From NCBI GenBank assembly GCA_003762715.1, contig RIBJ01000042.1:1-64000 (forward strand): a stretch of 64,000 bases of DNA, given 5' to 3'. Below the pieces are notes generated by a model. It was not told the DNA's origin and ran no database searches. It saw only the letters and a list, made by a program, of their open reading frames with translations. The translations under genes and the position numbers were made by a program. The stretch is from Muribaculaceae bacterium Isolate-104 (HZI). Its GTDB lineage: Bacteria; Bacteroidota; Bacteroidia; Bacteroidales; Muribaculaceae. This document shows, one piece after another, positions 5,406-27,829 of this stretch (position 1 is the first letter of the stretch; every line of letters starts with the position of its first letter).

Positions 5406-6640
5406 CAGGACAGCATGGCTGCCACCCGGCGCACGGCTGCTATGAAGGCATCGCATTCGGCAATGGTGTTGTACACGCCGAATGATGCGCGCACTGTACC
5501 GGTAATGCCGAGTATGTGCATGAGCGGCTGGGCGCAATGGTGACCTGTACGCACCGCTATGCCGAGTTTGTCAAGTAGCATGCCTGTGTCGTAATGATGT
5601 GCGTCGCCGATGAGAAATGATATAATGGCGCTTTTGTGTGGGGCGTTTCCGAATATTCTTACTCCCGGAATGTCAAGCAGAGCCGGTGTAGTGTATCTGA
5701 GCAACTCGTCCTCATGGGCGGCGATGGATTCTATGCCTATGCTTTTAATGTATGAGATTGCTGAATTGAATGCAGCTATGCCTACAAAGTCGGGAGTGCC
5801 GGCTTCGAATTTGAACGGGAGGTCGGCGTATACGGTTTTTTCAAACGATACGGTCTTGATCATTTCTCCGCCTCCCTGGTACGGCGGCATCTCCTCGAGC
5901 AGCTGCCGCTTGCCGTACAGCACCCCGACTCCGCAGGGACCATACATTTTGTGCGAGGAGAATACATAAAAGTCGGCATCAAGAGCTTGTACATCCACGT
6001 TGAGGTGAGCTATCGCCTGTGCTCCGTCAACAATCGTTACCGCACCGGCTCTGTGGGCGCAGTCAATTATTTCCTTGACAGGATTTATTGTGCCGAGCAC
6101 ATTGCTGACATGGGTTACAGCGACAATTTTTGTGCGGGGCGACAGGAGGCTGCGGTAAGCGTCCATGTCGAGCTCGTCGTTGTCGGTAAGGGGTATTACT
6201 TTTATTACGAGTCCGCGTTTTTCTGCAATCAGCTGCCATGGCACAATGTCAGAGTGGTGCTCCATGGCGGAGAGTATTATTTCGTCGCCCGGTTCGAGCA
6301 GCAATCCATAGCTTGCCGCCACAAGGTTTATTGCCTCGGTTGTGCCTCGGGTGAAGATTATCTGTTCCGTAGATGGGGCGTTGATGAATTCAGCGACGAC
6401 AGAGCGCGTTGATTCCATCATGGATGTGGCTTCCTGAGAGAGTGTGTGGACTCCTCTGTGAACATTTGCCTTGTGGGTGTAGTACATGGAGTCTACAGCC
6501 TCGACAACTTGTCTCGGGGTTTCGGTGGTGGCGGTATTGTCGAGGTATATCAGCTGCCTGTCGTAGATTTTCCGGTCGAGAATAGGAAAGTCCCGACGGA
6601 TGCGCATTATGTCATCAGTCGTTAGGTTTTTCATTGTCAT
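5405..6640 (-). CDS. sufS: Cysteine desulfurase SufS
   Basis: A PLP enzyme that takes sulfur from cysteine and hands it, as a persulfide, to the SufBCD scaffold. Seen: the N-terminal IRRDFPILDR and LDNTATTETP, the aldimine Lys in FSSHKMYGP (about 230), and the RTGHHCAQPLM loop carrying the catalytic Cys (about 368), all typical of class II desulfurases. The length of 411 residues is normal. The reading frame is open further upstream from a TTG, but that part lies inside sufD. ATG at 6640 or 6634 is the likely start because a purine-rich AAAAAGAGA precedes them and the family needs only a short lead. It overlaps the sufD end by about 20-26 nt and ends the suf operon. No sufE or sufU is in the window, so the sulfur acceptor partner must be elsewhere. 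Confidence 0.95.
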   Translation of the reverse strand: MTMKNLTTDDIMRIRRDFPILDRKIYDRQLIYLDNTATTETPRQVVEAVDSMYYTHKANVHRGVHTLSQEATSMMESTRSVVAEFINAPSTEQIIFTRGTTEAINLVAASYGLLLEPGDEIILSAMEHHSDIVPWQLIAEKRGLVIKVIPLTDNDELDMDAYRSLLSPRTKIVAVTHVSNVLGTINPVKEIIDCAHRAGAVTIVDGAQAIAHLNVDVQALDADFYVFSSHKMYGPCGVGVLYGKRQLLEEMPPYQGGGEMIKTVSFEKTVYADLPFKFEAGTPDFVGIAAFNSAISYIKSIGIESIAAHEDELLRYTTPALLDIPGVRIFGNAPHKSAIISFLIGDAHHYDTGMLLDKLGIAVRTGHHCAQPLMHILGITGTVRASFGVYNTIAECDAFIAAVRRVAAMLS

Positions 6641-7994
6641 TCTCTTTTTTATGACATGAAGAACGGCATTCTCCGCAGAGAGCTTCGGCTCCGGCAAACC
6701 GCTTTTCTACAAGGTGTCTAAGCCGGTCGCGAAGACCGTCCATGCGCACTGTGTCAATGACATCTGTCATGAAAGCCTGCATCAGCATCACTTTTGCCTC
6801 GCGTTCAGGAATGCCGCGTGTGCGCATATAGAACAGAGCTTCGTTGTCAAGCTGTCCGGTAGTGGCGCCGTGCGAGCATTTCACATCGTCGTTGTATATC
6901 TCCAGCTGGGGGCGGGTGTGCATCCTCGCGTCCGGGTGGGCGAGGATGTTGCGGTTGCTCTGATAGGCTTCTGTAAAGGGAGCTCCGGGAGTTACGAGTA
7001 TGCTGCCTTCGAAAGCGCCGGAGGAGTGGTCGTCAAGCACATATTTGAACAGCTGACGGCTGTTGCAGTGCGGCGCGAGGTGGCGTATTATGCTGCTGTT
7101 GTCCACATGCATGTTGTCTGAGCCGACTGCCATTCCTGCAAGGGTTGTTTCGCAGTCTGTTCCGTCAATATCAATAGAATAGTCGTTTCGGGTGGTGCCG
7201 CAAGTGAGTGTTATTCCGTTTACAAGCAGGTTGCTGTTTTTGCTCTGACGGGCAAAAAGATTGCTTGAACGTCTGGTGAGGGGCGATGATTCCTCTATGT
7301 CGTAGTAATCGAATCTGGCTCCGTGTCCGAGTGCTATTTCCACAACCTGCGATGACAGGCAGTCGGTGGCGGCAGACTGAGTGTGGTCACACACCAGCAG
7401 CTGGGCTGACGAGTTGCGTCCGAGTACAACCAGCAGACGCCTTACAGCCATTACGGGAGCCGGTGTTGCGAATATGTTGACGAGCTGCAGCGGTTTTTCA
7501 ACGGTAACTCCGTCGGGTATATATATCATGACTCCGTCCTGGGCAAGGAGGGTGTTCAGCGCCACTTCGGGGCGTGCAAGCGGTGCGAGGGTGCCGTAAT
7601 AAGCCTCTACAATGTGCGGAATTTGTGTTGCGGCGTTTCTTATGGATGTGAACACTACACCGTCAGACAGACGTTGTTCCAATCCTGACACAGGATGAAA
7701 CGAGTCGTTGACGCACACTCCGAGAAGGGTGCTCATATTGGGCACATCGCAACGGAATGACGCTGCAATGTCGGCTGTCATATCCACGCGGTTGACATTT
7801 ATGCCGAAATCAGGCGAGAACATTTCATCAAGAGATGTCTTTTCGTAGCCTTCATCGCCTTTCTCCGGCAGGGATTTGCCGCGGAGGCTTCCGTAAGCAG
7901 CCATGCGTAGCCTGTTCATTGCTTCCGGCGAATCTTTGTCAAAAGCCTCGCGGTTGCGTGTGAACAAATCGATATACTGGTCTATGCTTTTCAT
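6615..7994 (-). CDS. sufD: Fe-S cluster assembly protein SufD
   Basis: A component of the SufBC2D scaffold on which Fe-S clusters are built, paralogous to SufB. The C-terminal half carries the beta-helix core with LAHPDARMHTRPQLEIYNDD and the DVKCSHGATTG motif typical of SufD, followed by ALFYMRTRGI. The protein has 459 residues. I set the start at the ATG at 7994. A TTG two codons earlier overlaps the sufC stop, but the ATG fits a 2-nt gap after it. The C-terminus ends in an unusual Cys/Lys-rich tail (CGECRSSCHKKENDNEKPND), a possible extra metal or redox feature. It lies between sufC and sufS. Confidence 0.93.
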   Translation of the reverse strand: MKSIDQYIDLFTRNREAFDKDSPEAMNRLRMAAYGSLRGKSLPEKGDEGYEKTSLDEMFSPDFGINVNRVDMTADIAASFRCDVPNMSTLLGVCVNDSFHPVSGLEQRLSDGVVFTSIRNAATQIPHIVEAYYGTLAPLARPEVALNTLLAQDGVMIYIPDGVTVEKPLQLVNIFATPAPVMAVRRLLVVLGRNSSAQLLVCDHTQSAATDCLSSQVVEIALGHGARFDYYDIEESSPLTRRSSNLFARQSKNSNLLVNGITLTCGTTRNDYSIDIDGTDCETTLAGMAVGSDNMHVDNSSIIRHLAPHCNSRQLFKYVLDDHSSGAFEGSILVTPGAPFTEAYQSNRNILAHPDARMHTRPQLEIYNDDVKCSHGATTGQLDNEALFYMRTRGIPEREAKVMLMQAFMTDVIDTVRMDGLRDRLRHLVEKRFAGAEALCGECRSSCHKKENDNEKPND

Positions 7995-18494: not shown

Positions 18495-19787
18495 TTATGA
18501 CATTTTGTCCATTACTGTTTCCATTTTAGCCGCAATCTGAGCGTTGCAGAGGTTTCCGATGCTGCCTTCGTGGGTGTGGGAAACGCTGCGGGTGGGTACA
18601 TATTCTCCATTCTGCACCTGCATGCCTACAGTGCGGTATGCTTCTCTGAAGGGCATGCCGCCGAGGGCAAGGCGGTTTACATCCTCTACCGTGAAGAGGT
18701 AGTCGTATTTCGGGTCGTCAAGAATGTTTTCTTTTACTTTTATGTGTGACAGCATGAAGTCGCACATGTCCAGACAGCTCCGGAGCTCGCTGAATGCGGG
18801 GAAGATAATGTCTTTGAGCAGCTGAAGGTCGCGGTTGTAGCCTAGAGGCAGATTTGCCGTGAGCAGGGCTATTTCATTCGGTATCGACTGGAGGCGGTTG
18901 CATTTGCCGCGCATAATTTCAAACACGTCGGGGTTCTTTTTATGCGGCATTATGCTTGAGCCGGTGGTAAGTTCGTCCGGGAATGAAATGAAAGCGAAGT
19001 TCTGACACATCCACATGCACACATCCATTGCGAAACGCCCGAGGGTGGAGGCTACCGCGGCTATAGCCATGCCGGCTGCCCGTTCGGTCTTGCCACGGCT
19101 CATCTGTGCCGCCACTACGTTGTAGTGCATGGTTTCGAATCCGAGCAGTTCGGTTGTCATGGTACGGTTCAGTGGGAAAGATGAGCCATAACCGGCAGCT
19201 GAGCCGAGCGGGTTCTGGTTTGCAATGCTGTAGGCGGCTGCAATCATCTGCATGTCGTCTACAAGAGCTTCGGCGTAAGCCCCGAACCAGAGTCCGAAAG
19301 AAGAGGGCATGGCTATCTGAAGATGAGTGTAGCCTGGCATAAGAGCGTCTTTGTGCTTTTCGCTCAGGAGCTGAAGTCTGTCAAAAAGGTGTTTTATGCT
19401 TTGAGATGTTGTTTTCAGTTCGTCCCGAATGAATAGTTTGAGGTCAACGAGCACCTGGTCGTTTCGTGAGCGTCCGCTGTGGATTTTCTTGCCAGTGTCG
19501 CCAAGCCGCTGTGTAAGCATAAATTCCACCTGCGAATGTACATCCTCGATGCCCGGCTCTATGGTAAATTCTCCACGCTCTATGATTGCGGCAATGTCTT
19601 CAAGAGCCTCAAGCAGTGATTTGAGCTCGTCGCCTGAGAGCAGTCCGATGCTTTCAAGCATCCGTATGTGAGCCATAGACCCCATGACATCGTAGCGCGC
19701 GAGCTTCAAATCCAGTTCGCGGTCGTTTCCAACGGTAAATTCCTCTATCATTTTATCCGGTTCAAAGCCTTTGCTCCAAAGTTTCAT
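18495..19787 (-). CDS. argH: Argininosuccinate lyase
   Basis: Last step of arginine synthesis: argininosuccinate to arginine and fumarate. Shows the superfamily signature GSSIMPHKKNP (about 277-287) with the catalytic Ser loop, HSGRSRNDQV (about 104-113), and TAxL-type TANLPLGYNRDLQ. At 430 residues it is slightly shorter than the E. coli enzyme (457). The ATG overlaps the argE' stop by 4 nt; it is the last gene of the operon. Confidence 0.95.
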   Translation of the reverse strand: MKLWSKGFEPDKMIEEFTVGNDRELDLKLARYDVMGSMAHIRMLESIGLLSGDELKSLLEALEDIAAIIERGEFTIEPGIEDVHSQVEFMLTQRLGDTGKKIHSGRSRNDQVLVDLKLFIRDELKTTSQSIKHLFDRLQLLSEKHKDALMPGYTHLQIAMPSSFGLWFGAYAEALVDDMQMIAAAYSIANQNPLGSAAGYGSSFPLNRTMTTELLGFETMHYNVVAAQMSRGKTERAAGMAIAAVASTLGRFAMDVCMWMCQNFAFISFPDELTTGSSIMPHKKNPDVFEIMRGKCNRLQSIPNEIALLTANLPLGYNRDLQLLKDIIFPAFSELRSCLDMCDFMLSHIKVKENILDDPKYDYLFTVEDVNRLALGGMPFREAYRTVGMQVQNGEYVPTRSVSHTHEGSIGNLCNAQIAAKMETVMDKMS

Positions 19788-20842
19788 TTCAGGTTGTTTA
19801 ATATGTCTATGTAAGTTTTTAATCCGGTGTCGATTTCCGAAATTTCAATATATTCGTCTGCGGTGTGGCTTCTGGATGACTCTCCCGGACCTATTTTCAG
19901 CGAGGGAAATGAGTGCATCACAGCCATGTCGCTCATAGTAGACGAAACAAATGGTTTTAGTCCGAGGGCGGTGCATGCGCGAACCAGCTCGTGGTTGAGG
20001 TCGATAGCGTTTGCCCGCAGTCTGGTTGACCGTGGTACTGCTTCCGATTTTATTGCCGAACGTATGATTTCCACTGTTTCTTCGTTGGTATATGCGTCGG
20101 TAGTGCGCACGTCTACCACGAATTTGCATTCGTCAGGCACAACGTTGTGCTGCTTGCCCGCGTTTATAACGGTAGTAGTCACCGAGATAGGACCAAGGAG
20201 TGCCGATTGCCTTTCGAATTTTATGTTGCGCAGGGCATTGATGTCGTCTATGGCGGCGTAAAGCGCGTTGATGCCTTCGCCCCTTGCCGCGTGTCCCGAC
20301 ACGCCTGTCGCCGTGCAGTCGAGAACCACAAGCCCTCTTTCGCCGACAGCCGGCTGCATTGAAGTGGGTTCGCCGACTATTGCCATGTCAATTTTGATTC
20401 CGTTGGACTGTAGTTCGGGCAGCATGGCTCTCATGCCGTTCTCTCCAGTCACTTCCTCTTCGGCTGTCATTGCGAGAATGAGGTTGAAAGGCAATGGCGC
20501 GGAACGGAAGTGGCTGAACACATGGGCGAGTGATACCAGTGACGCGCCCGCGTCGTTGCTTCCGAGACCGTAAAGACGACCGTTCTCTATAGTGGGTGTG
20601 AAAGGCTCCCGGGTGTATCCGGCAGCAGGTTTCACGGTGTCGTGGTGGCTGTTGAGCAAAAGGGTTTTCCGCGCGGGGTCGTACCTGTCCGACACTGCCC
20701 AGACGTTGTTGTGGTGTCGGTGGGCGGTAATGCCCTTGCTGACAAGCCATTGTTCAAGGATGTCGGCGGTGCCGTTCTCCTGCCGTGATAGTGACGGAGT
20801 GACTATGAGCGAGGATAGTAGAGCTACTGCGGAGTCTGTCAT
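19784..20842 (-). CDS. argE': M20 deacylase (N-acyl-citrulline/ornithine deacylase, ArgE-like)
   Basis: A 352-residue zinc peptidase-family deacylase. The five metal ligands are present: NSHHDTV, LGSNDAGAS, AEEEVTGENG with the catalytic Glu, VGEPTSMQP, and the C-terminal SRSHTADEYIE. In an operon with a succinylornithine-type transcarbamylase the expected substrate is N-succinyl-L-citrulline, giving citrulline for ArgG; N-acetylcitrulline is the alternative. The specificity is inferred from the neighbour rather than from this protein. ATGA overlaps on both sides (argB upstream, argH downstream) show tight coupling. Confidence 0.88.
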   Translation of the reverse strand: MTDSAVALLSSLIVTPSLSRQENGTADILEQWLVSKGITAHRHHNNVWAVSDRYDPARKTLLLNSHHDTVKPAAGYTREPFTPTIENGRLYGLGSNDAGASLVSLAHVFSHFRSAPLPFNLILAMTAEEEVTGENGMRAMLPELQSNGIKIDMAIVGEPTSMQPAVGERGLVVLDCTATGVSGHAARGEGINALYAAIDDINALRNIKFERQSALLGPISVTTTVINAGKQHNVVPDECKFVVDVRTTDAYTNEETVEIIRSAIKSEAVPRSTRLRANAIDLNHELVRACTALGLKPFVSSTMSDMAVMHSFPSLKIGPGESSRSHTADEYIEISEIDTGLKTYIDILNNLK

Positions 20843-21609
20843 GTCTTTATTGTGGTGCCTCTGTTGCTCAGCAGGTTGTCGGAATGCTTTATGGTTACGG
20901 ATTCAACTCCGGCGGCTATCGCAGCAAAAGCGTTGTCGATTTTGGGAATCATGCCGCGGTTCACAGTGCCGTTGTCGCGGAGTTCAGAGTAGCTCTCGCG
21001 GCTGATGTCGGCAATAAGAGAGTCGGGGTTGTCTATGTCGCGGAGCACTCCGTCCTTTTCGAAGCAGTAAATCAGTTTTGCCGGAGACAGATAGCTCATG
21101 GCAACGGCAACGGATGAGGCCACAGAGTCGGCGTTACAGTTGAGCAGAGTGCCGTTGCCGTCATGGGTTATGGCGCAGAATACAGGCGTTATGCCGTTGT
21201 CAAGCAGGCTGTTTATAAACAGGTTGTTGATTTCTGTCGGGTTTATGTCGCCGACAAATCCGTAATCAATTGGAGATGCGGGTCTTTTTGTGGCTTTGAT
21301 TACACCGGCATCGGCACCTGAAAGTCCGATTGCATTGCATCCGGCAGCCTGAAGAGCGGCGACGATGCGTTTGTTGACGAGTCCGGCATAAACCATCGTC
21401 ACCACATCGAGGGTTTCGCGCGAGGTTACCCGGCGTCCCTCTATCATGGTGGTTTCTATGCCCAGTTTCTCGCTCAGACGGGTGGCTTCCTTGCCGCCTC
21501 CGTGAACAAGAATCTTTTTTTCCGGCATCTGGGCGAAATCTCTTACAAAGCGGCAGAGAGCGTCAGGGTTGTCAACGACATTGCCTCCGATTTTTATTAT
21601 AGAAATCAT
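20839..21609 (-). CDS. argB: N-acylglutamate kinase
   Basis: Phosphorylates the gamma-carboxylate of N-acyl-glutamate (acetyl in most bacteria; probably succinyl here). In 256 residues: the N-terminal KIGGNVVDN with the catalytic Lys, VHGGGKEATRLSEKLG, the sugar/acyl-binding Arg in MIEGRRVTSRETLDVV, and the C-terminal GTVNRGMIPKIDNAFAAI with the phosphate-binding Lys. Overlaps argF' upstream and argE' downstream by 4 nt each. Confidence 0.94.
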   Translation of the reverse strand: MISIIKIGGNVVDNPDALCRFVRDFAQMPEKKILVHGGGKEATRLSEKLGIETTMIEGRRVTSRETLDVVTMVYAGLVNKRIVAALQAAGCNAIGLSGADAGVIKATKRPASPIDYGFVGDINPTEINNLFINSLLDNGITPVFCAITHDGNGTLLNCNADSVASSVAVAMSYLSPAKLIYCFEKDGVLRDIDNPDSLIADISRESYSELRDNGTVNRGMIPKIDNAFAAIAAGVESVTIKHSDNLLSNRGTTIKT

Positions 21610-22562
21610 GCCAGCTCCTCCAACATTCTTTTTAGTACTGTCTGAGCCGAGATTTCTCTGTTGGCGGCTTCGGGTATCACTATGCTTTTGGGCGATTCTA
21701 TGACTTCGTCTGTAACAATCATATTGCGCCTTACCGGAAGGCAGTGCATGAAAAAGGCATCGTTTGTCAAAGCCATTTTTTCCGAATCGACTGTCCAGGA
21801 CCAGTCGGTGCTTAGAATTTTGCCGTAATTCGGGTCGTTGAAGGCGCTCCAGTTTTTGGCATATATGAAATCGGCTCCTTCAAACGCTTTTTTCTGGTCA
21901 TATTCGATAGTGGCTCCGGCGGTGAATTCGGGCGCGAGTTCGTAGCCGTGCGGATGTGTTATGACCACATCGTAGCCGGCAGCGACACTCCACTGGGCGA
22001 ACGAGTTGGGCACTGCCTGAGGCAGCGCCTTGGGGTGAGGGGCCCAGGTCAGCACTACTTTCGGGCGCTGAACGGATTTGTGTTCCTCAATCGTTATTAT
22101 GTCGGCAAATGCCTGCAGCGGATGTCCTGTAGCGGCTTCCATGCTGAATACCGGACGTCCGGAGTACTTTATGAACTGGTTGAGTACTTTTTCGTTGTAG
22201 TCATCGTTTTTGTCTGTAAGTCCGGCAAACGACCTCACGCCGATAATGTCGCAATAGCTTGCCATAACGGGGATTGCTTCGAGCAGGTGCTCGGCTTTGT
22301 CTCCGTCCATGATTACTCCGCGCTCTGTTTCGAGTTTCCAGGCTCCCTGGTTGACATCCAGTACAATCACATTCATGCCGAGGTTCATCGCGGCTTTCTG
22401 GGTGCTGAGACGTGTGCGCAGGCTTGAGTTGAAAAACAGCATAAGCAGGGTTTTGTCGTGACCCAGGTTCTTGAACGCGAATCGGTTGGTTTTTACTTCA
22501 AGAGCTTCCGCGACAGCTTTCTTTATATCGCCTATGTCGGCAACAGTTGTGAAATTTTTCAT
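21606..22562 (-). CDS. argF': N-succinyl-L-ornithine carbamoyltransferase (SOTCase type)
   Basis: Carbamoylates acylated ornithine to acylated citrulline. The 318-residue protein has the carbamoyl-phosphate loop FFNSSLRTRLST (about 43-54), VRSFAGL, HPLQAFAD and the C-terminal HCLPVRRNMIV. It is very close along its length to my recollection of the Bacteroides fragilis succinylornithine enzyme. The residue known to set specificity (Pro90 in B. fragilis, Glu92 in the Xanthomonas acetylornithine enzyme) is Ala90 here, in DKAEHL. The frame is open 18 codons upstream, but the ATG at 22562 overlaps the argD stop as ATGA and matches the family N-terminus. Annotation pipelines often miscall it ornithine carbamoyltransferase. 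Confidence 0.92.
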   Translation of the reverse strand: MKNFTTVADIGDIKKAVAEALEVKTNRFAFKNLGHDKTLLMLFFNSSLRTRLSTQKAAMNLGMNVIVLDVNQGAWKLETERGVIMDGDKAEHLLEAIPVMASYCDIIGVRSFAGLTDKNDDYNEKVLNQFIKYSGRPVFSMEAATGHPLQAFADIITIEEHKSVQRPKVVLTWAPHPKALPQAVPNSFAQWSVAAGYDVVITHPHGYELAPEFTAGATIEYDQKKAFEGADFIYAKNWSAFNDPNYGKILSTDWSWTVDSEKMALTNDAFFMHCLPVRRNMIVTDEVIESPKSIVIPEAANREISAQTVLKRMLEELA

Positions 22563-23680
22563 AAAGCGGCTTTGAATTCGTTGAGGAAATGGTCGGCAAG
22601 TTGTTTGTTCAGACACAGGGCAGGCAGCAGACGCACAGTGTGAGCACCTGCACCGCCGGTAAATATGTGGTGGTCGAAAAGCAGTTTTTTACGGAGTTCG
22701 GATGCGTTGCCTTCGATTTCAACACCAATCATGAGTCCGCGTCCGCGCACTTCTTTCAGGGCGGGTATTTTTTTGAGTTCGCCGATAAGGTAAGCACCGG
22801 TATCGGCGGCGTTTTCAATCAGTTTTTCCTCTGCCATGACATCGGCAACGGCAATGGCGGCGGCGCAGGCGAGGTGGTTGCCTCCGAAGGTTGTGCCGAG
22901 CATGCCTTTGACCGGCTTGAGTTCCGGCGAAATCAGCACTGCTCCGATAGGAAATCCGTTGCCTATGCCTTTCGCCATGGTTATTATGTCGGGGCTGATG
23001 CCGCTTGTCTGGTGGGCGAAGTAAGTGCCGGTGCGTCCTGTGCCGCTCTGTATTTCGTCAAGAATCAAGACAACTCCCTGGCTTTTGGTTATATTTCTGA
23101 GCTGGCGTAAAAAATCGTCGCCCGGTTCGTGGATTCCGGATACTCCCTGAATGCCTTCGATGATTACTGCGCAGAAATCGCCGGATGACAGCTTTTCCCT
23201 GACATCATCTATGTTGCCGAATTGTGCGAACTCGACGTTTGCCGTGCGGTTGAACGGCGACACAATGGCCGGGTTGTCGGTGGCGGCTACCGCGCCGCTT
23301 GTTCTGCCGTGAAACGCTTTAGAAAAGGCGAGTACTTTTTTCTTTCCGGTTGTAAAACTTGCAAGTTTTATTGCATTTTCGTTGGCTTCCGCTCCGGAAT
23401 TGCACAGAAACAGCTGGTAGTCGGGATAGCCTGTAAGAGTTCCGAGTTTTTCGGCAAGGGTTGTCTGTAGAGAATTTTCAACAGAGTTGGAGTAGAATCC
23501 GAGTTTGCTTACCTGGTCGGAGATGGCTTTGACGTAACGGGGGTGTGCGTGTCCTATGGAAATGACCGCGTGCCCTCCGTACAGGTCAAGATACTCGGTG
23601 CCGTCGGCTGTGTAGACAAATGAACCTTTGCCGGCAACCGGCTCTATGTTGTATAATGAATAAACGTCAAAAAGAGTCAT
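22559..23680 (-). CDS. argD: N-acylornithine aminotransferase
   Basis: PLP-dependent transamination of N-acyl-glutamate semialdehyde to N-acyl-ornithine. Seen in 373 residues: FLCNSGAEANENAIKLA, AFHGRTSGAVAATD, the PLP Asp in LILDEIQSGTGRTG, the PLP Lys in MAKGIGNGFPIGA (about 236) and TTFGGNHLACAAA. In Bacteroidota this would act on the succinylated substrate. It sits 11 nt after argC and overlaps argF' by 4 nt. Confidence 0.94.
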   Translation of the reverse strand: MTLFDVYSLYNIEPVAGKGSFVYTADGTEYLDLYGGHAVISIGHAHPRYVKAISDQVSKLGFYSNSVENSLQTTLAEKLGTLTGYPDYQLFLCNSGAEANENAIKLASFTTGKKKVLAFSKAFHGRTSGAVAATDNPAIVSPFNRTANVEFAQFGNIDDVREKLSSGDFCAVIIEGIQGVSGIHEPGDDFLRQLRNITKSQGVVLILDEIQSGTGRTGTYFAHQTSGISPDIITMAKGIGNGFPIGAVLISPELKPVKGMLGTTFGGNHLACAAAIAVADVMAEEKLIENAADTGAYLIGELKKIPALKEVRGRGLMIGVEIEGNASELRKKLLFDHHIFTGGAGAHTVRLLPALCLNKQLADHFLNEFKAAL

Positions 23681-23691
23681 AGCTGAGAGTG

Positions 23692-24651
23692 TTAGAATGC
23701 GGATGGCTTGAGGTTGAGTCCGGCGCGTTCGTCAAATCCGCACATAATGTTCATGTTCTGTACTGCTTGTCCGCTTGCGCCTTTGAGGAGGTTGTCAATC
23801 GCCGTTGTGACGAGCAGGTAGTCGCCATGCTTTTCCATCCCTATAATTGCTTTGTTTGTGTTGACAGCCTGTTTGAGATCCACATCTCCGGGGGCTATGT
23901 GGGTAAACGGCTCTCCGGCATAAAAGCGGGTGTAGGTATCGCGGGCTTCCTCTATTGAAAGGTCGCTCTTGAGCCAGGATGCAGCAAAGATGCCCCTTGC
24001 GAAGTTGCCGCGCATAGGCACAAAGTTTATACTGCAGCTGAATTGCGGCTGAAGCAGAGTCAGTGTACGGTTAATTTCAGCCAGATGCTGGTGAGTGAAC
24101 GCCTTGTAGACCGACATGTTGTCGCTGCGCCAGCTGAAATGGGTGGTTGCTCCAGGTTTTACTCCGGCACCGGTAGAGCCGGTTATGCCTGTTATCTGTA
24201 TGTCTGACACCAGTTTGCCGGCTGCGGCAAGCGGCAGCAGCGACAGCTGCAGTGCGGTGGCGAAGCAACCGGGGTTTGCAACAAGCCTTGAGGATGCGAT
24301 TCTGTGGCGGTTTACTTCCGGCAGTCCGTAGACGTACCCGTTGCTCTCATCGCGGAAATCCTGGGCGAGGTCAATAACCTTCAGGTTGGCCGGCAATGGA
24401 TTTTCTTTCCAGAAAGCGGTGCTTTTTCCATGTCCTGAGCACAGAAACAGTATGTCAACAGAGTCAAGCGGGTGGTCGGCACTGAATTTCAGGTCGGTTT
24501 CTCCTATAAGTCCGCCGTGCACGTCTGTAACCGGATTGCCGGCATTACTTGACGAATGAATAAATCCGATTTCTATTTCCGGATGGTTCAGCAGCAGTCT
24601 TATGAGTTCTCCGGCGGTGTATCCTGCTCCTCCGATTATTCCGGCTTTCAT
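23692..24651 (-). CDS. argC: N-acyl-gamma-glutamyl-phosphate reductase
   Basis: NADPH-dependent reduction of N-acylglutamyl phosphate to the semialdehyde. The N-terminus GIIGGAGYTAGELIRLL is the dinucleotide fold of ArgC, the catalytic Cys lies in NPGCFATALQL (about 127), and STGAGVKPG follows. Length 319 is usual for the short ArgC type. It overlaps argG by 4 nt. Confidence 0.94.
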   Translation of the reverse strand: MKAGIIGGAGYTAGELIRLLLNHPEIEIGFIHSSSNAGNPVTDVHGGLIGETDLKFSADHPLDSVDILFLCSGHGKSTAFWKENPLPANLKVIDLAQDFRDESNGYVYGLPEVNRHRIASSRLVANPGCFATALQLSLLPLAAAGKLVSDIQITGITGSTGAGVKPGATTHFSWRSDNMSVYKAFTHQHLAEINRTLTLLQPQFSCSINFVPMRGNFARGIFAASWLKSDLSIEEARDTYTRFYAGEPFTHIAPGDVDLKQAVNTNKAIIGMEKHGDYLLVTTAIDNLLKGASGQAVQNMNIMCGFDERAGLNLKPSAF

Positions 24652-25859
24652 TCTGCTTTGCCGTTACGTTTCTGTACGTTGTGGTATATCTTCATCTGAT
24701 TGCCGAGAATCTTGGTGAAGCCTTTCACATCGTCTGCGCTCCATGCTTTGTTCACTTCGCCGTATTCACCGAAGTCTGTTTTCATGAGGTCAAACGAGGT
24801 GTCTACACCGACAAGGGTGTATGAGTACGGGCGGAGAAGTATCTCCACTGTGCCTGACACATTGCGCTGTGATGTCTCGAGCATGGCTTCCATGTCGCGC
24901 ATAACCGGTTCCAGGTACTGTGCTTCATGAAGGAACATGCCGTACCATGTGCCGATCTGGTCTTTCCAGTACTGCTGCCATTTTGTAAGAGTATGCTTTT
25001 CGAGCATCTTGTGAGCGGCGATTATAAGGATAGGTCCTGCAGCCTCGAAGCCTACACGACCCTTGATGCCTATTATTGTGTCGCCTATGTGCATGTCGCG
25101 ACCTATGCCGAATTCGGCGCCGGCTTTTTCCACGGCACGGATTGCCGCTATGCGGTCGGTGTATTCCTTGCCGTTTACGGCGGTGAGTTCACCTTCGGTA
25201 AAGGTTAGCTTGAGAGTTTCGGTGTCTGTTCTTGTTATCTGGCTGGGATAAGCGTTTTCCGGGAGTGTCTGTTCGGACTTGAGTGTTTCTTTGCCGCCGA
25301 TGCTTGTGCCCCAGAGACCTTTGTTGATGGAGTATTCCATTTTTTTGAAATCTGCCTCGTAGCCGTGATTTTTGAGATAGTCTATCTCGTACTCTCTGGT
25401 TAGAGTCATGTCGCGGGTGGGTGTTATGATTTCGATTTCGGGAGCGAGAATCTGGAATGTAAGGTCGAAACGTACCTGGTCGTTTCCGGCGCCGGTAGAG
25501 CCGTGAGCCACAGCGTCAACGCCGATTTTCTTGGCATATTCTATAATGGCGATTGCCTGGAAAATTCGCTCGGAGGAAACGCTGATAGGGTATGTGCCGT
25601 TGCGCAGCACATTTCCGGCAATCATGTAGCGGATGCTCTTGGAGTAGTAGTCGCCGGTAACGTCAAGAGTGGCGTGGCTTGCCGCTCCGAGGCGCTTTGC
25701 CTTGTCGGCTATTATTTCGAGTTCTTCGTCAGAAAAACCTCCGGTATTTGCTATTGCGGTGTGGACTTCGTAGCCGAGGTCCTCGCTAAGATATTTTACG
25801 GCAAATGATGTGTCAAGACCTCCGCTGAACGCAAGAAGCACTTTCTTTTTGTTTTCCAT
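24648..25859 (-). CDS. argG: Argininosuccinate synthase
   Basis: ATP-dependent joining of citrulline and aspartate. The pyrophosphatase-type P-loop LLAFSGGLDTSFAVKYL opens the 403-residue protein; GSTGAGNDQVRFD and the C-terminal SYTLVGVDTSFDLMKTDFGEYGE fit the family, although the exact sequence is of the divergent Bacteroidota type. It is unusual for argG to come near the start of the operon, before argC, argD and argB. It follows the GNAT gene by 14 nt. Confidence 0.93.
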   Translation of the reverse strand: MENKKKVLLAFSGGLDTSFAVKYLSEDLGYEVHTAIANTGGFSDEELEIIADKAKRLGAASHATLDVTGDYYSKSIRYMIAGNVLRNGTYPISVSSERIFQAIAIIEYAKKIGVDAVAHGSTGAGNDQVRFDLTFQILAPEIEIITPTRDMTLTREYEIDYLKNHGYEADFKKMEYSINKGLWGTSIGGKETLKSEQTLPENAYPSQITRTDTETLKLTFTEGELTAVNGKEYTDRIAAIRAVEKAGAEFGIGRDMHIGDTIIGIKGRVGFEAAGPILIIAAHKMLEKHTLTKWQQYWKDQIGTWYGMFLHEAQYLEPVMRDMEAMLETSQRNVSGTVEILLRPYSYTLVGVDTSFDLMKTDFGEYGEVNKAWSADDVKGFTKILGNQMKIYHNVQKRNGKAE

Positions 25860-25873
25860 ATCAGTAATGTTAT

Positions 25874-26494
25874 TTATTTTTTCAAATGAAGGAGTTTGCT
25901 GATTTTGCTTTTAATCAGCATTTTGTAAGGAGTGGCTGTGGATGGGTTGGCAACCGGTGCGGCGGGGTCGTACAACATTCCTGTGCAAAGGCACATGCGC
26001 CGGTTGTTGCGCTGGAGTATGTCAAAGTTCACACATCCCTGGCAGCCTTGCCAGAATTCTTCGTCGTCGGTGAGTTCGGAGAATGTCACGGGTCTGTAGC
26101 CCATGCGGCTGTTCAGCTTCATGACGGGCAGCGATGTGGTGATGCTGAAAATTTTGGCAAAAGGAAATCTGAGACGTGCGAGTTCAAATGTCTTTTCCTT
26201 GATGCGTCCCGCCAGCCCGAGATGGCGGTAGTCGGGGTCGACTATGAGTCCGGATGTGGCAACAAAATCACCGTGTCCCCAGCATTCTATGTAGCTGAAG
26301 CCTATGAGCTTGTCGCCGTCAAGGGCTACTACTGCCTTGCCTCCGGTTATTTTTGCAGAAATATAATCGGGCGAACGGCGTGCTATACCTGTGCCGCGCT
26401 GAAGGGCAGATTCGTAGATCAGTGTGCAGATGCGCTCGGAGTGGACTGTGTGTTCAGGCTCGGCAAACGCAACTTTAATATTATCCGCGTTCAT
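25874..26494 (-). CDS. GNAT acyltransferase, first gene of the arginine operon
   Basis: A 206-residue GCN5-type N-acyltransferase: VALDGDKLIGFSYIECW, the acyl-CoA loop region LIVDPDYRHLGLAGRIKE (about 85-105), then FSITTSLPVMKLNSRMGYRPVTF. Its place at the head of the operon makes it the best candidate for the first step, acylation of glutamate; with a succinylornithine-type enzyme downstream, succinyl-CoA would be the donor. That is inference; the sequence shows only the fold. The C-terminus contains MCLCTGMLYDP and a basic tail. No ArgA/ArgJ homologue is otherwise visible. Confidence 0.82.
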   Translation of the reverse strand: MNADNIKVAFAEPEHTVHSERICTLIYESALQRGTGIARRSPDYISAKITGGKAVVALDGDKLIGFSYIECWGHGDFVATSGLIVDPDYRHLGLAGRIKEKTFELARLRFPFAKIFSITTSLPVMKLNSRMGYRPVTFSELTDDEEFWQGCQGCVNFDILQRNNRRMCLCTGMLYDPAAPVANPSTATPYKMLIKSKISKLLHLKK

Positions 26495-26555: not shown

Positions 26556-26588
26556 CAAAGTTACATAAAAAACTGGATATTCATACAA
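26556..26588 (-). promoter_or_regulatory. Promoter of the arginine operon
   Basis: Minus strand: TTG (26588-26586), 22-nt spacer, TAACTTTG (26563-26556), an exact TAnnTTTG. It gives a leader of about 55 nt. I see no clear ArgR box in the leader. Confidence 0.65.
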
Positions 26589-26593
26589 AAATA

Positions 26594-26674: not shown

Positions 26675-27829
26675 TCAGAGAACTTTTTCGTAGAGAGCTT
26701 TGATGTCGTCAAGTGTTACTTCACGCGGATTGCCCGGCGTGCATACATCTGAAATGGCTTGTTCTGCCAGCGCAGGAATGTCGGCGGAAGATATGCCGAG
26801 TTCTGACAGGTGCTGGGGTATACCGACTTTAACCGCGAGGTCGCGAACCGCGTCAACAGCTGCCTGTGCGGCTTCTTTTTTGCTCATTCCGGAGGTGTCC
26901 ACTCCCATGGCTTTTGCTATTTCGGGGTATTTGTCAAGACATGCGGGCATGTTGAATTCCATTATAGTCGGTAACAGCAGAGCGTTTGCAACGCCGTGCG
27001 GCACATCGAACAAAGAGCCCATCGGATGTGCCATGCCGTGAACCAGTCCCAGTCCGACATTTGAGAATGCCATGCCGGCAATGTACTGGGCGACAGCCAT
27101 GCCGTTGCGCCCTTCGGGGTTGGAAGGTTCGTTTACAGCAACGGGGAGGTAGCGGGCTATCATTCTGACAGCTTCTATTTCAAACATGTCAGACATTTCC
27201 CATGCGCCCTTGGTGATGTAGCCTTCAATGGCATGTGTCAGCGCGTCCATGCCGGTGGCTGCGGTGAGTCCTTTTGGCAGCGAGTACATGAGCTCGGCGT
27301 CAATAATTGCAACCGCGGGGATGTCATTGGGGTCGACGCACACCATCTTTTTCTGTTTGTTCTCGTCGATTATGACGTAGTTGATAGTGGTTTCGGCTGC
27401 GGTGCCTGCTGTTGTAGGCAGTGCCACAATAGGTACGCTTTTGTTTTTTGTGGGAGCGCAACCTTCAAGCGACACAATGTCGTCAAACTCGGGGTTGTTG
27501 ATTACTATGCCGATGCCTTTTGCGGTATCCATAGCCGAGCCGCCGCCTATTGCTATTATAAAGTCGGCTCCGGCTTTTTTGAAGCTTTCTATGCCTGCTT
27601 TTACATTGGACACGGTCGGGTTTGGCTTGACGTCGCTGAATATGTCATAGGATATGGCTGCTTCGTCAAGTACGTCTGTGACCATTTTGGCTACGCCGAA
27701 CTGTATGAGTCCTTTGTCGGTCACTACAAGCGCCTTGACTTTGTTCAACCGCTGCACAACTTCCGGCAATACCTTTCTTGCGCCCGGTCCGAAGTACGAT
27801 ACTTCGTTTAGAATAAATCTGTTTATCAT
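26675..27829 (-). CDS. fucO: Iron-dependent alcohol dehydrogenase, lactaldehyde reductase type
   Basis: Reduces L-lactaldehyde from fucose or rhamnose breakdown to 1,2-propanediol with NADH. The 384-residue protein has the group III ADH layout: NAD-binding IGGGSAMDTAKG (about 97-108), PTTAGTAAETT, and iron ligands in GMDALTHAIE (Asp and His) and GLVHGMAHPMGSLFDVPHG (two His). Overall close to E. coli FucO; a related alcohol substrate cannot be excluded. It follows the sialidase gene by 17 nt, linking it to host-glycan sugars, although no fucI/fucK/fucA is in the window. Confidence 0.87.
   Translation of the reverse strand: MINRFILNEVSYFGPGARKVLPEVVQRLNKVKALVVTDKGLIQFGVAKMVTDVLDEAAISYDIFSDVKPNPTVSNVKAGIESFKKAGADFIIAIGGGSAMDTAKGIGIVINNPEFDDIVSLEGCAPTKNKSVPIVALPTTAGTAAETTINYVIIDENKQKKMVCVDPNDIPAVAIIDAELMYSLPKGLTAATGMDALTHAIEGYITKGAWEMSDMFEIEAVRMIARYLPVAVNEPSNPEGRNGMAVAQYIAGMAFSNVGLGLVHGMAHPMGSLFDVPHGVANALLLPTIMEFNMPACLDKYPEIAKAMGVDTSGMSKKEAAQAAVDAVRDLAVKVGIPQHLSELGISSADIPALAEQAISDVCTPGNPREVTLDDIKALYEKVL

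Follow-up and report, generated by a model that had tools for sequence, protein, structure and literature searches.

The closest described counterpart of the gene considered here is BT3761 of Bacteroides thetaiotaomicron, an organism in which no ArgA or ArgJ was found (GapMind, PMC7311316). Transposon mutant fitness marks the BT3761 mutant as an arginine auxotroph, and the protein has been described as "probably N-succinylglutamate synthase" (GapMind, PMC7311316). The same source identifies ArgB of B. fragilis as an N-succinylglutamate kinase, and associates S, P, A or V at position 90 of the transcarbamylase with succinyl preference. PMC9026213 names the family ArgA2, predicts the same role for it, and places it in 194 Bacteroidetes genomes, in 190 of which it occurs alongside ArgF3, i.e. 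succinylornithine transcarbamylase. A relative from Caldithrix abyssi, Cabys_1732, is stated to be >50 % identical to BT3761 (PMC7311316, PMC5317091), and has been called an N-acetylglutamate synthase on the basis of unpublished data (Kublanov et al., PMC5317091). A literature search for a published succinyl-CoA assay on ArgA2 returned none.

The window, a stretch of 64,000 nt from a Muribaculaceae bacterium, carries an arginine operon of eight genes on one strand, in the order argA2-G-C-D-F′-B-E-H, with most adjoining genes overlapping or standing only a few bases apart. The leading gene, argA2 (25874–26494, minus strand), begins with ATG and encodes a 206 aa GNAT protein that is very probably ArgA2, the glutamate N-acyltransferase for the first step of a succinylated arginine pathway; this prediction draws on the ORF itself, Pfam PF00583, the fold and family conservation. 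It is followed, all on the minus strand, by argG (argininosuccinate synthase, 24648–25859, from profile and domain matches), argC (N-acylglutamyl-phosphate reductase, 23692–24651, TIGR01850 above cut-off), argD (N-acylornithine aminotransferase, 22559–23680, NCBIfam scan), argF′ (succinylornithine transcarbamylase, 21606–22562) and argB (N-acylglutamate kinase, 20839–21609, TIGR00761 above cut-off). The argE position is occupied by an M20-family deacylase (19784–20842, PF01546 and PF07687), a predicted N-succinylcitrulline desuccinylase according to the role given in PMC7311316, and the operon ends at 18495 with argH (argininosuccinate lyase, 18495–19787, TIGR00838 above cut-off). The gene upstream of the operon (26675–27829) encodes an iron-containing alcohol dehydrogenase, which lies 180 bp from argA2 and is unrelated to the arginine set. 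Around 60 bp before the argA2 start codon is a promoter-like element of Bacteroides type, TTTG-N22-TAACTTTG (26556–26589, minus strand), proposed solely from its likeness to the TTTG/TAnnTTTG consensus; scans for promoters and terminators revealed no excess of note. The initial annotation, which had described an operon covering acyl-glutamate to arginine with a 206-residue GNAT protein at its head, was thus right in its gene list, which argH completes, and in placing this ORF first in the operon.

With regard to the protein itself, the GNAT cut-off of Pfam is passed (PF00583, 23.5 bits versus 20.7), whilst the scan of NCBIfam models places it in no specific family. The PRK07757-type short N-acetyltransferase model, NF005840, scores 22.3 bits versus a cut-off of 154; the classical ArgA model, TIGR01890, yields no match and no N-terminal amino-acid-kinase domain is present; and the ArgJ domain, PF01960, is absent from the Pfam scan. 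Across 77 relatives the near-invariant positions comprise RGTGIAxR (33–40), Y44, K48, E70, S81-G82, R90, K99, K114, K126, N128, E140, W148 and four cysteines. Residues 89–99 (YRHLGLAGRIK; 26198–26230, minus strand), delimited in family alignments, are what we take to be the acyl-CoA pyrophosphate-binding motif of GNAT proteins, and within them R90, I98 and K99 are near-invariant. The cysteines form a CxxC-x13-CxC motif near the C-terminus (C151, C154, C168 and C170; 25985–26044, minus strand) that is kept in 99 % of the 77 sequences and in 18/18 of a second alignment. Judging by its spacing pattern, the motif may bind a metal, possibly as a zinc site; no mention of it was met in the passages on ArgA2 consulted in PMC9026213. 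The structure predicted from a two-sequence alignment (pLDDT 70, with a poor C-terminus) has a GNAT fold, with N-acetylglutamate synthase (NAGS) of Neisseria gonorrhoeae (Z 15.1) and ArgA of Mycobacterium tuberculosis, Rv2747 (Z 14.4), among the best structural alignments, both of them tied with other GNATs. Function is not given by fold alone, and comparison of GNAT folds cannot separate acyl donors.

Evidence for the acyl group comes from the transcarbamylase. The window ArgF′ matches the solved succinylornithine transcarbamylase of B. fragilis (2fg6) over its full length (E 1.9e-161), and at the acyl-specificity residue, position 90, it has Ala (codon 22293–22295), where B. fragilis has Pro90 and the 2g7m entry has Glu. 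The arginine pathway of the window is, to go by these sequence features, succinylated. The acetyl-type Glu90 is absent from the ArgF′ of every ArgA2-bearing genome looked at; some of these proteins have T, Q, G or I at this position, which lies outside the tested succinyl set of S/P/A/V. For a comparison of acyl pockets, Glu90 was also sought in ArgA2 genomes with distant ArgF′ proteins, all of which proved to have V or A. Since these genomes offer no Glu90 ArgF′, no specificity-determining residue of ArgA2 can be inferred. In the proposed scheme, ArgA2 would convert succinyl-CoA and L-glutamate to N-succinyl-L-glutamate and CoA; ArgB, ArgC, ArgD, ArgF′ and the M20 deacylase would then carry the succinylated chain to citrulline, which ArgG and ArgH would turn into arginine.

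The distribution of ArgA2 follows that of ArgF′. Amongst 296 genomes drawn evenly across the phylum, ArgA2 is found in 124, an ArgF′-like transcarbamylase in 145 and ArgJ in 122, with ArgJ and ArgA2 together in only one genome. ArgF′ is present in all 124 of the ArgA2 genomes (Fisher p 9e-62, a value that is descriptive only because the counts treat related genomes as independent). Within the family to which the window belongs, a set of 149 genomes divides into 93 with both genes, five with ArgA2 only, one with ArgF′ only and 50 with neither; several of the six discordant ones are incomplete assemblies. The pairing of ArgA2 with ArgF′, for which the initial annotation had proposed a survey, is thus complete across the phylum sample. 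In three genomes ArgA2 is fused in frame to the N-terminus of ArgG, as single reading frames of 630, 601 and 588 codons (L126, 4860–6749; L127, 4205–6007; L128, 4239–6002; all minus strand).

Several further observations were made on this family. Long frames resembling ArgA2-ArgG also occur in the window's own family, in a few of its members. Across the 149 genomes of this family, ArgA2 falls into two groups, with approximately 66–85 % and 51–60 % identity to the window protein; several members of the latter group have argA2 and argF′ on different contigs, which suggests that argA2 has been replaced or transferred within the family. Six genomes of the class contain second ArgA2-like copies. 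Three of these copies were examined (L120, 4130–4822, minus strand; L122, 4576–5178, minus strand; L124, 4287–4832, plus strand); all lie outside arginine operons and have some of the invariant residues altered (A38, Y44, E70, Y133); the L124 copy adjoins an M20 deacylase, hinting at another pathway with acylated intermediates. Two genomes, G227 (L130) and G223 (L154), harbour ArgJ alongside a succinyl-type arginine operon, and on viral contigs ArgA2 is found at one locus only (L251).

The ArgF′ genomes that lack ArgA2 are accounted for by a different gene. A P-loop protein of approximately 360 aa is present in 21/21 such genomes of the phylum sample, and in each of the 15 neighbourhoods examined its gene lies between argG and argC, inside the arginine operon. 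Together, ArgA2 and the P-loop gene make up exactly the 145 ArgF′ genomes, with an overlap of one (G030). A scan of species genomes added 80 P-loop loci, a few of them from genomes already in the 296-genome draw, in Rhodothermus, Salinibacter, Rubrivirga, Balneolales, Woeseiaceae and two DPANN archaea; in all 80 the gene is beside argG and/or argC, and between them where both are in the stretch. In P-loop operons, position 90 of ArgF′ is occupied by A, T, S, P or Q and in no case by E. Conversely, 12 genomes with a Rhodothermota-type arginine operon are missing the P-loop gene and have ArgA2 elsewhere; in 11 of these argG directly adjoins argC, and in the twelfth the examined stretch starts at argC. 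A FastTree phylogeny of ArgF′ implies five changes of state between ArgA2 and the P-loop gene; well-supported branches force three of these, and long branches advise caution. Such a swap is what non-orthologous gene displacement would produce, which argues that ArgA2 and the P-loop protein perform the same step.

These findings bear on what else the window gene might be. One alternative is an accessory or regulatory acyltransferase, with the first step carried out by a different GNAT, or by some other enzyme, encoded elsewhere. The genome does contain 10 other GNAT matches; however, the obligate co-occurrence with ArgF′, the fusions to ArgG, the clean displacement by the P-loop gene and the arginine auxotrophy of the BT3761 mutant (PMC7311316, PMC9026213) together make this very unlikely. 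The initial annotation had noted no ArgA or ArgJ and held that a separate synthase elsewhere would speak against its proposal. Profile searches now extend the first point from the operon to the whole genome (99.97 % complete), where ArgJ gives no match above cut-off and the sole match to ArgA (TIGR01890) is the operon's own ArgB, at 45.7 bits versus a cut-off of 202.85. There is likewise no second copy or paralogue of the window GNAT in this genome, so that the search for a separate synthase of the ArgA, ArgJ or GNAT-paralogue kind found none.

The other alternative concerns the donor: the enzyme could be an N-acetylglutamate synthase, or use both donors, with succinyl preference arising only in later enzymes. 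The published designation of Cabys_1732, given its identity to BT3761, is in keeping with this, as is the inability of GNAT fold comparison to distinguish the donors. It is nevertheless improbable, as no ArgF′ of any ArgA2 genome looked at has Glu90, and as ArgB of B. fragilis is an N-succinylglutamate kinase (PMC7311316), which would leave little use for an acetyl product. For the window gene as ArgA2, both the reaction and succinyl-CoA as its donor are inferred. The earlier suggestion that the GNAT protein makes N-succinylglutamate gains support from co-occurrence, ArgG fusion, ArgF′ residue 90 and gene displacement. It is correct, yet not new: the step, which the initial annotation considered not well described, had already been proposed for the orthologous family in papers of 2020 and 2022 (PMC7311316, PMC9026213). 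What the present work provides is backing for the annotation of the window gene from a wide genome set and independent tests, at a time when NCBIfam is still without a model.

The second candidate for the first step is the part likely to be new to specialists; no description of it was found in the searchable literature. In Pfam scans of 29 members, the P-loop protein gives only sub-threshold matches, to DUF1611, MobB and CbiA, with the first protein scanned reaching 20.3 bits for DUF1611 (PF07755) versus a gathering score of 25; a sequence search of the PDB with the P-loop profile returns only weak matches to dethiobiotin synthetase. The best alignment of its predicted structure (pLDDT 92.5) is to the DUF1611-type structure 2g0t (Z 17.6); 2obn (Z 16.3) and 7xrj, the structure of the N-acetyltransferase DgcN (Z 15.4), align with it too. 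These three alignments extend N-terminal of the P-loop domain, whilst CTP synthases tie at Z 17 over the P-loop domain only. Genes of this BioD/DUF1611-like fold lie between argG and argC at, for example, L151 (10592–11683, minus strand) and L205 of Salinibacter altiplanensis (6001–7047, plus strand), and at some 90 further loci. DgcN, a D-glutamate N-acetyltransferase from the DUF1611 group, is part of a D-glutamate pathway, and there is therefore a precedent for a P-loop glutamate N-acyltransferase. Rhodothermia and Woeseiales are groups for which PMC12363236 records dgcN, and some of the genes entered under that name in marine surveys, as D-glutamate breakdown genes, may be arginine-operon P-loop genes. 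For an arginine role of DUF1611/DgcN-like proteins, no publication was found in the open-access literature, and papers outside that set are possible.

The P-loop protein is a strong candidate for the role of N-succinylglutamate synthase, as a second enzyme non-homologous to ArgA2. It is likely that the first step of the succinylated arginine pathway is served by two unrelated enzymes that have displaced each other several times: ArgA2, a GNAT protein, and a BioD/DUF1611-like P-loop protein whose gene sits between argG and argC in members of the Rhodothermota, Balneolota and Woeseiaceae and in some DPANN archaea. If true, N-succinylglutamate synthase would gain a new isofunctional form with a P-loop fold, which would be a new fold for glutamate acyltransferases, and this stand-in for ArgA2 would close the gap that the succinylated pathway shows at its first step outside the class Bacteroidia. 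In that event, a dgcN-like gene within an arginine operon should not be scored as D-amino-acid catabolism.

Set against known systems, the P-loop protein, as opposed to the window gene, has its best fold match in a DUF1611-type structure, with DgcN also aligned and CTP synthases tied, and is unlike DUF1611 and DgcN proteins in falling short of the Pfam cut-off and in sitting between argG and argC. The window gene is closest to ArgA2/BT3761, with which it shares GNAT family membership, an arginine operon, a succinyl-type ArgF′, the lack of ArgA and ArgJ, and nearby genes for ArgG (BT3760) and an ArgD-type aminotransferase (BT3758). No difference between the two was found, their orthology being assigned by shared gene order and role rather than sequence identity. 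Cabys_1732 belongs to the same family according to the published account and likewise heads an arginine locus (argAGCBEH), differing from our reading of the window gene in its designation as an N-acetylglutamate synthase. Classical ArgA and the short NAGS Rv2747 have in common with the window protein the GNAT fold and glutamate N-acylation; the window protein departs from them in having no kinase-like domain, in not reaching the NCBIfam models, in its C-terminal four-cysteine motif, and in its expected donor, succinyl-CoA.
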